From Elusimicrobiaceae bacterium (GTDB lineage: Bacteria > Elusimicrobiota > Elusimicrobia > Elusimicrobiales > Elusimicrobiaceae), in assembly GCA_017618215.1 (NCBI GenBank), contig JAFZUQ010000006.1:62001-126000 (forward strand): a stretch of 64,000 bases of DNA, in the 5' to 3' direction. The first letter of the stretch is position 1. Each line of letters begins with the position of its first letter. The notes below the pieces were generated by a model that made no database searches, was not told the DNA's origin, and saw only the letters and a program-made list of their open reading frames with translations. Shown piece by piece: positions 60,184 to 62,306 of this stretch. A program made the translations under genes and the position numbers.

Positions 60184-60189
60184 AAGTAA

Positions 60190-60219
60190 ATTTTACAATT
60201 TATAGTTTAAATCTTCCAA
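60190..60219 (-). promoter_or_regulatory. leaderless promoter of the C_GCAxxG_C_C gene
   Basis: TTGGAA (60219-60214), 18-base spacer, TAAAAT (60195-60190) on the minus strand, then six bases to the ATG at 60183. Confidence 0.55.
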
Positions 60220-60224
60220 CCTTA

Positions 60225-60239
60225 GAACAATATTTGTTC
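60225..60239. promoter_or_regulatory. palindrome between divergent promoters
   Basis: GAACAA (60225-60230), TAT, TTGTTC (60234-60239). It lies between the -35 boxes of the C_GCAxxG gene and the RNA gene, where a regulator could affect both. The centre has seven bases between GAAC and GTTC, not the four of a Bacillus LexA box. Confidence 0.35.
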
Positions 60240-60250
60240 CTAGAGACCCC

Positions 60251-60280
60251 TTGACATTTTGAAAAAAACGGTTATACTAT
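60251..60280 (+). promoter_or_regulatory. promoter of the small RNA gene
   Basis: TTGACA (60251-60256), 18-base spacer, TACTAT (60275-60280). A full -35 consensus with a near-consensus -10 suggests strong, constant transcription starting near 60287. Confidence 0.8.
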
Positions 60281-60286
60281 AGTATA

Positions 60287-60455
60287 TCCGCGGAGGCCGT
60301 TTCGGGCGGGTGTTGTGTGAGGTGGCAGCGGTGCCCCTACATAGCGTTAAGCCCCCTTGAAGATGTAGAGCTGGCGGATTAAAAGGAAATGTGTATAATG
60401 ACGAAAGTCTATAACTAACTAACCCTCGTGGAATACCGAGGGTTATTTTATTTTG
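60287..60455 (+). ncRNA. unassigned small RNA gene, about 165 bases
   Basis: From the promoter to the terminator there is no plausible protein frame apart from a six-codon one near 60399. The region is more GC-rich than its surroundings. Stems that can be drawn: ATCCGC near 60286 with GCGGAT near 60375, CAGC with GCTG just inside it, CTACAT (60338-60343) with ATGTAG (60364-60369), and GAC-GAAA-GTC near 60400. The long closing stem would suit a 6S RNA, but I cannot match conserved 6S bases. SRP RNA is ruled out by the missing GGAAGC tetraloop region. No tmRNA or RNase P motifs were seen. Confidence 0.65.
60421..60455 (+). terminator. intrinsic terminator of the small RNA gene
   Basis: AACCCTCG (60421-60428) pairs with CGAGGGTT (60437-60444); ATTTTATTTT follows. 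Eight pairs and a T-rich tail. It may also stop transcripts from the convergent ABC-F gene, whose stop is at 60471. Confidence 0.9.
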
Positions 60456-60470
60456 TCTTTTTAGCTAATT

Positions 60471-62306
60471 TTATTGTAAATTTTCCAATTCGGTAGTAAG
60501 TTCAAGCCACTTGGCTTCAAGGTCAGTAATTTCTTTATTTATAAAGGCAAGTTCAATGCTTAAATCAGTATTAAATTGCACGGTTAAACGCTGCTCAATA
60601 TTTTGTTTTTGATTGGTTAATTTATCAAGTTTTTTCTCAATTTCCCTGATTTGTTTTTTTATGGGGGCGGCTTGTGCACGAAGTTCGGCCGCAGTTCTGC
60701 GGCGCTCTCTTTTTATGTCCGCTTTATTTTGCGCGGCACTTGCACCGCCGCCGTGTAAAACAAAGTTTTTATAATCTTCCAAATCGCCTTCATAATTTTG
60801 GACTGTACCGTTTGCGACGAGCAAAAGGCGGTCTGTAACTTCCTCAAGCAAATTAAAATCGTGCGTAACTAAAATTACTGCACCGCTGTAATTGTTTAGA
60901 GCCTCACTTAAAGCTCGGCGGGAAGTTATGTCTAAATGGTTTGTCGGCTCGTCTAAAATTAAAATATTTGGGCGCGCAATTGTTATCATTGAAAGGAGTA
61001 GCCTGCTCTTTTCCCCCCCTGAAAGGCTGCCGATTTTTGTGTCCGCTTTATTTTTTTGCAAGCCAAAACAAGCAAGATGAGTGTAAACTTCAGCCTCTTT
61101 GGCCTCAGTCATTTTTTCTTTAGCAACTTCATAAGGTGTTTTATCAAGGTCAAAAACTTCCGTCTGATGTTGGGCGAAATAACCCACTTTTATTTTGCGT
61201 GCATAAGTTAATTTACCTTCCATTGTCGGCAGCATTCCGGCAAGCAATTTAGCAAGTGTACTTTTACCGTTACCGTTTGCCCCAAGCAATGCAATTTTAT
61301 CTTCCGCACCGATAGTTAAATTAATATTTTTTAAAACAGGTGTGTCATTATATCCGCAGGAAACATCTTCCAAAGTATACAAATATGCATCAAGCAAATC
61401 AGGCTCCGGGAAAGTAAAACGAACGCTTTTTTCTATCGGAATTTTTGGTGCGTCGCCCATACGCTCAAGCATTTTTAAACGGCTTTGTGCCTGCTTAGCT
61501 TTGGTGGCTTTATAGCGGAATCTATCGACGAAACTTTGCAAATGTTTGCGTGTTTCTTCATAGCGTTTTGCGTCTTTAATAATTTGCTCGGTTTGATTAT
61601 GGCGGGTACGTTCATAAGTATCATAATTGCCGGTATAAGTTTTTAATTTACACTCATCGACTAAAATAATTTTTTCGCAAATTTTATTAAGTAATGCGCG
61701 GTCGTGGCTGATTAAAAAAAGTGTTTTATCGGTTTTCTCCAAAAAACTTTCAAGCCAAATTGAGGTTTCTAAATCTAGGTGGTTTGTAGGTTCGTCCAAA
61801 AGCAAAATATCAGACGGGGCAAACAAAGCAGCCGCAAGAGCAGCACGCACGCGCCAACCGCCGGAAAGTTCTTTTAAAGGCTTTTTTAATTCCTCATCCA
61901 AAAAACCAAGACCGCCCAAAATCGCACTTGCACGCGCTGAAGCGCTGTTGGCACCGAGGTTATTTAATTTATCGTAAATTTCTGCAATTTCTTCGCCTGA
62001 TTTGGCGATGGCAAGTTTATCATACAAAACCTTTAAACGTTTATCTGCCTGCAAAACATATTCAAGTGGAGTTAAAGAAGTATCTTTAATTTCCTGCTCA
62101 ACGGTGGAAATTTGCGTGCCGGAACTAAGGGTAATTTTACCGCCGTCCGGGTAAATTTGACCGAGAATAAGACGAAATAAAGTAGTTTTTCCGCAACCGT
62201 TTAAACCTACAAGGCCGGTTTTTGTACCGTCGGCAATAAAGCAAGAAGCATCTTCAAAAATCGGGCGAAGGCCTATATGATAACTTAAATCAGAAATTTC
62301 TATCAT
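60471..62306 (-). CDS. ABC-F family ATPase
   Basis: 611 residues with two ABC domains and no membrane helix. First domain: GLNGCGKTTLF near 35, LSGGWRVRAALA near 145, LLLDEPTNHLD near 168. Second domain: GANGNGKSTLAK near 345, LSGGEKSRLLLS near 430, LILDEPTNHLD near 452. A charged linker lies between them and a coiled coil follows at the C-terminus, as in Uup/YdiF types. Members act on the ribosome in translation or resistance. It begins 18 bases after typA, with SD AAAGGG. Confidence 0.92.
   Translation of the reverse strand: MIEISDLSYHIGLRPIFEDASCFIADGTKTGLVGLNGCGKTTLFRLILGQIYPDGGKITLSSGTQISTVEQEIKDTSLTPLEYVLQADKRLKVLYDKLAIAKSGEEIAEIYDKLNNLGANSASARASAILGGLGFLDEELKKPLKELSGGWRVRAALAAALFAPSDILLLDEPTNHLDLETSIWLESFLEKTDKTLFLISHDRALLNKICEKIILVDECKLKTYTGNYDTYERTRHNQTEQIIKDAKRYEETRKHLQSFVDRFRYKATKAKQAQSRLKMLERMGDAPKIPIEKSVRFTFPEPDLLDAYLYTLEDVSCGYNDTPVLKNINLTIGAEDKIALLGANGNGKSTLAKLLAGMLPTMEGKLTYARKIKVGYFAQHQTEVFDLDKTPYEVAKEKMTEAKEAEVYTHLACFGLQKNKADTKIGSLSGGEKSRLLLSMITIARPNILILDEPTNHLDITSRRALSEALNNYSGAVILVTHDFNLLEEVTDRLLLVANGTVQNYEGDLEDYKNFVLHGGGASAAQNKADIKRERRRTAAELRAQAAPIKKQIREIEKKLDKLTNQKQNIEQRLTVQFNTDLSIELAFINKEITDLEAKWLELTTELENLQ

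Follow-up and report, generated by a model that had tools for sequence, protein, structure and literature searches.

Dual-function small RNAs (sRNAs) such as SgrS/SgrT and SR1/SR1P have their own promoter and terminator, a Shine-Dalgarno (SD) sequence and a short open reading frame (ORF), whose product is about 43 amino acids (aa) long for SgrT and about 39 aa long for SR1P. A survey of ORFs in sRNAs counts those of 10-50 aa (PMC5521070). In Sinorhizobium meliloti, rnTrpL is an attenuator-derived leader RNA, and its leader peptide peTrpL functions in trans (PMC7298713). The 6S RNA, in turn, is laid out as a central bubble between two stems (PMC4064990). Here we compare with these systems a locus on the (+) strand of a 64-kb stretch of DNA from an Elusimicrobiaceae bacterium (hereafter the window), where positions 60251-60453 hold a promoter, an RNA of ~163 nucleotides (nt) and a strong terminator. 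We read it as the gene of a free-standing structured sRNA that has its own promoter and terminator, would probably act in trans, would be engaged by ribosomes and possibly has a dual function; the case for this reading appears to us about evenly balanced. The predicted features are as follows.

60251-60278, (+) strand: sigma-70-type promoter, with TTGACA at 60251-60256, a 16-nt spacer kept in homologues and TATACT at 60273-60278 (11/12 matches).
60285-60448, (+) strand: predicted RNA of ~163 nt, its ends placed from the promoter and the terminator; the covariance model R1 matches 60279-60449 (G000:C6:122279-122449).
60286-60379, (+) strand: 5' structured domain, a rod of stacked helices comprising P1 (60286-60291/60374-60379), P2, P3 and an apical hairpin, from RNAalifold on 13 sequences and from covariation.
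60384-60387, (+) strand: SD-like AGGA, 10 nt before the AUG, with a mean unpaired probability of 0.70-0.78 depending on the genus.
60398-60418, (+) strand: micro-ORF of six codons, ATG ACG AAA GTC TAT AAC TAA (MTKVYN*), with an equivalent in 65/65 homologues.
60400-60409, (+) strand: small hairpin GAC-GAAA-GUC, overlapping the micro-ORF, seen in the consensus fold and kept in the window's own genus.
60420-60453, (+) strand: intrinsic terminator, a 9-pair stem (60420-60445) and a T-rich tail, the stem pairs being >99% formed in 65 sequences.

On comparative evidence, the RNA gene is real and conserved across the Elusimicrobiaceae. BLAST recovered the full RNA in the genus only, and the covariance model R1, built from 13 sequences, extended the range to the family. 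A second model, R2, was built from 65 sequences and searched against 341 Elusimicrobiota genomes, 90 of them Elusimicrobiaceae. Only matches better than about E 1e-12 were counted, because the low-scoring R1 matches in G005, G008, G009, G013 and G020 proved on inspection to be family-like at the terminator only, and weaker matches were therefore taken as noise. The first-pass annotation of this locus would have given up its sRNA gene if neither transcription nor conservation in relatives were seen, and R2 finds strong matches in 77 of the 90 family genomes: 14/18 in g1 (the window's own genus), 60/66 in g6 and 3/3 in g2, all three being genera of this family. No R2 match clearly above noise was found outside the Elusimicrobiaceae among the 341 genomes. 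Relatives carrying the same RNA include records named as uncultured Elusimicrobia and Elusimicrobiaceae, on which the assignment of this family to the Elusimicrobiaceae is based. The gene is present in a single copy in the window's genome (G000, 1.34 Mb, contig 6). One g6 genome, G122, has two strong copies (G122:C25:274-442 and G122:C129:12544-12714), which may reflect a paralogue or a mixed assembly. A phage-borne element was also considered and rejected, the core pattern of the RNA being without match in viral contigs.

The predicted RNA is folded into a conserved long hairpin or rod. In the RNAalifold consensus of 13 sequences, 16 pairs are changed on both sides. The covariance analysis over homologues that had been suggested for this locus was extended to the 65 sequences, in which both-side changes occur in 32 of 42 pairs and 94.2% of the cells are paired; shuffles reach 76.8%, and slid controls 39-52%. 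Because the 65-sequence alignment had been fitted to the model, the g1, g6 and g2 alignments were also folded apart, and each showed the same succession, from a closing helix and a second helix through the 3'-side bulge to a third helix and the apical hairpin. The bulge, between P2 and P3, is conserved and reads UUAAG in the window's RNA. A single-sequence fold is more stable than shuffles (z about -2.2), but the complementary strand scores the same, so the real evidence for the fold is the covariation. The earlier description of a foldable, GC-richer segment of about 165 bases is borne out. GC content is 50% in the RNA and 62% in its hairpin domain, against 35.5% in the window and 28% in the upstream flank.

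The same annotation had seen no protein frame here. This stands for ordinary genes, as there is no ORF of at least 60 aa in 60184-60470, but it needs amending because of the conserved, SD-bearing micro-ORF, which had been overlooked. All 65 full-length homologues examined have an SD, an AUG, a short ORF (mostly of 5-8 codons) and a stop located 0-4 nt before the terminator stem, an arrangement present in 1.1% of dinucleotide shuffles of the same segments. The stretch after the rod, which holds the SD, is predicted to be largely unpaired. Downstream of the micro-ORF, TAACTAACTAA holds further stops, so that all three frames stop. Ribosome entry on the putative micro-ORF is a prediction that these features support. 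In g6, changes in ORF length leave the frame intact, and wherever an AUG of a pair is lost its in-frame partner is retained. The predicted peptides are MTKVYN (window), MTKESITN, MTAVSITN and similar in g1, MIMTLMS, MKMTYMS, MTRMS, MNMTMS and similar in g6, and MSKLTN and MSTPVN in g2; a few slightly longer versions are possible through an in-frame upstream AUG.

In the reading we favor, a strong promoter of its own would drive the RNA and a terminator of its own would end it, and the RNA would act in trans, not on a gene downstream. The rod would be a recognition domain for a partner, which may be a protein, the ribosome or a small molecule, and the 3' half would be translated as a minigene, with a ribosome starting on it and then stopping against the terminator hairpin. 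Such an RNA would work like a freed attenuator leader RNA without a downstream operon. A more specific proposal, which we put forward only tentatively, is that of a "minigene RNA", in which the folded domain would govern ribosome loading on the 5-8 codon ORF, and the RNA would report on or trap translating ribosomes in trans. If true, this would be a translation-sensing sRNA without an operon, in bacteria without recognisable signal recognition particle (SRP) and Hfq. More generally, a covarying rod combined with an extremely short ORF against the terminator of a stand-alone gene is an unusual combination, which could reveal a new coupling between sRNA and ribosome in bacteria lacking a recognisable Hfq and SRP, and which is testable in the cultured Elusimicrobium minutum (probably G018).

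The comparison with described systems bears on this reading. Like rnTrpL, the present sRNA has a short leader-peptide-type ORF upstream of an intrinsic terminator. Unlike rnTrpL, which is the 5' leader of a biosynthetic operon, it stands alone among unrelated neighbours, its ORF has 5-8 codons, and a covarying rod of ~95 nt precedes the ORF. Its predicted promoter and terminator are both conserved and would make it an independent transcription unit, as is expected of dual-function sRNAs, with which it also shares an SD and a short ORF. The ORFs of those sRNAs are however longer, and their base-pairing is often linked to Hfq, which was not found here.

Several points weigh against a ribosome-engaged sRNA. 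The transcript, the peptide and the partner are all putative. In g1 the length of the loop varies out of frame (4, 6 or 7 nt), the stops of TAACTAACTAA in all frames keeping the ORF. Since these changes are out of frame and every frame has stops, it may be of no importance which peptide is encoded; what is kept constant would then be the halt of a ribosome at the terminator, perhaps more so than the peptide. The ORF is too short for a good test of codon-level selection, and the 65 sequences are related and represent only about three independent lineages. A detectable copy is also missing from 4/18 g1 genomes, from six g6 genomes and from the single-genome genera g3-g5, some of the assemblies being incomplete.

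These out-of-frame changes would also fit a purely non-coding, trans-acting RNA, whose 3' segment is kept for base-pairing with targets or for a small hairpin by the terminator. The motifs AUGAC and GUC and the stretch ACUAACUA are strongly conserved as sequence, and a GAC/GUC hairpin is conserved in g1 and g6. Yet the two genera form this hairpin from different sides of AUGAC, and it is not evident in g2, whereas SD, AUG and stop are present in all; that arrangement is expected by chance in about 1% of cases per sequence. Hfq was also sought: family PF17209 had no match in 25/25 relatives (G000-G015 and G060-G068), although the controls match in 5/14 only, so that a divergent Hfq is possible. 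As the genomes show no recognisable Hfq, the RNA would more probably bind a protein or the ribosome than work in an Hfq-dependent antisense mode. We therefore find the non-coding alternative doubtful.

The gene could conversely be a messenger RNA (mRNA) for a functional peptide of 5-8 aa, with the rod as a riboswitch-like 5' leader controlling translation. The succession of promoter, structured leader, SD, ORF, stop and terminator is that of an mRNA, and in g6 the peptide keeps an M-x-M-T-x-M-S pattern, with changes in ORF length that stay in frame. What makes this alternative unlikely in our view is that the genera have very different peptides (MTKESITN, MKMTYMS, MSTPVN) and that the frame is shifted within g1; in the predicted ensemble, moreover, the SD is mostly unpaired and the rod does not compete for it.

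The promoter had been annotated as TTGACA-18-TACTAT. TTGACA is real, but TATACT with a 16-nt spacer is the better -10 element, with 11/12 matches against 10/12 for the overlapping TACTAT with a spacer of 18. A promoter was scored in 64 homologues; 63 of them keep the 16-nt spacer, and one has a spacer of 17 (g6 47/48, g1 14/14, g2 2/2 scored). In G018, where the homologue lies at C1:452423-452578, a promoter scan within 100 nt found none, and a longer 5' end is expected for its RNA. The strong terminator noted earlier at the other end is confirmed, with its 9-pair stem followed by a T-rich tail. In g2 (L060-L061, L064) the -10 element lies ~45-80 nt further upstream, and the g2 RNA thus probably has an extra GC-rich 5' segment.

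No known RNA family accounts for the locus. The Rfam scan proposed in the first-pass annotation, which included the 6S model, gave no match at gathering score in the window except for a distant transfer RNA, only chance-level matches at E<=10 in the locus (E>1; snoRNA, STnc240 and others), and no convincing match to the RNA on 15 homologous loci. By title, none of the papers retrieved on Elusimicrobi and small RNA describes the present RNA, and no paper pairing 6S RNA with Elusimicrobi was found. The idea of an orphan sRNA gene, possibly a new regulatory RNA of the lineage, thus holds up well: there is no Rfam match, covariation is strong, the gene is restricted to the Elusimicrobiaceae, it has its own predicted promoter and terminator, and its neighbours vary. 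For a phylum with almost no RNA biology, what is at first sight an undescribed structured RNA family appears strongly supported.

A 6S-like long hairpin had been suggested, and this suggestion is not supported. The 6S model RF00013 detects the controls E. coli and B. subtilis but finds nothing in the locus at E<=10, and nothing that passes the cut-off in 40 genomes of the order. In the consensus folds the rod is short, has small loops and a bulge on its 3' side, is limited to the 5' ~95-105 nt, and does not have a large bubble between two stems; the 3' ~60 nt (~40%), with the ORF, lie outside it. Identity with 6S RNA was rejected accordingly. A looser version of the same idea would be an RNA that takes the functional place of 6S RNA by binding RNA polymerase. 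It would fit the single copy, the strong promoter, the stable-looking rod with its internal loop, the paired 5' end and the similar length, as well as the lack of a detected 6S RNA in the order. We nonetheless hold it quite unlikely, given the negative result with RF00013 even at E 10, a rod that leaves the 3' part outside and has no large symmetric bubble between two long stems, and the fact that the searches of 13 family genomes and of the remainder of the phylum yielded no copy.

The absence of SRP, transfer-messenger RNA (tmRNA) and RNase P signatures, as originally annotated, agrees with the lack of any Rfam match at the locus. The genes for tmRNA and RNase P RNA sit elsewhere in the window's genome, and both identities were rejected for the present RNA. 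SRP RNA was considered because the order is without a recognisable one (RF00169: no hit above cut-off among 60 of its genomes), and was rejected as no SRP motif is matched at this locus and the order also lacks the Ffh M domain. This domain (PF02978) was found in 0/30 genomes of the order and in 14/14 control genomes; in an order without it SRP RNA is not expected, and there is no vacancy for the present RNA to fill. The order (genomes G000-G083) seems to have lost SRP, and few Elusimicrobia have SRP proteins (PMC7987157).

The genes next to the RNA gene, identified by eye from the sequence, change from genus to genus, and many of them are convergently oriented to it. They are an ABC-F gene and a C_GCAxxG_C_C-type protein gene in the window's group, a squalene/phytoene-synthase-like protein, an alanine:cation-symporter-like protein or ThyX in g6, and NAD-biosynthesis and glycerate-kinase genes in g2. 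Since both neighbours and orientation vary, the RNA probably acts on its own and not on a downstream gene. A cis-acting attenuator or riboswitch of an adjacent gene would explain why a leader-peptide-like ORF adjoins the terminator (65/65), but the conserved downstream gene that an attenuator leader has in cis is not there: the downstream gene varies by genus and is often on the opposite strand, and in the window the ABC-F gene is convergent. Synteny thus largely refutes this alternative, which we consider barely credible.

Other observations concern the flanks of the gene. In other Elusimicrobiaceae (L014, L016, L017, L019), promoter-like stretches at different loci match the promoter's upstream part (CCCCTTGACATTTT...), and one of these stretches lies upstream of a pilin-like gene; the matches suggest a lineage-wide extended -35 element. 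The extended CCCCTTGACATTTT pattern has two occurrences in the window, not clearly above chance. The orientation of the RNA cassette also differs between the window's genome and three close relatives, and the regions concerned are as follows.

Window: 60188-60484.
L083: 5827-6066.
L028: 6721-6957.

Between the same genes, the promoter-RNA-terminator cassette of the window's genome has the opposite orientation to that in G010, G003 and G002. In G010 and G003, inverted repeats of 18-19 nt, 89-95% complementary, flank the cassette and include the end of the ABC-F gene, and the arrangement looks as if the cassette can flip.
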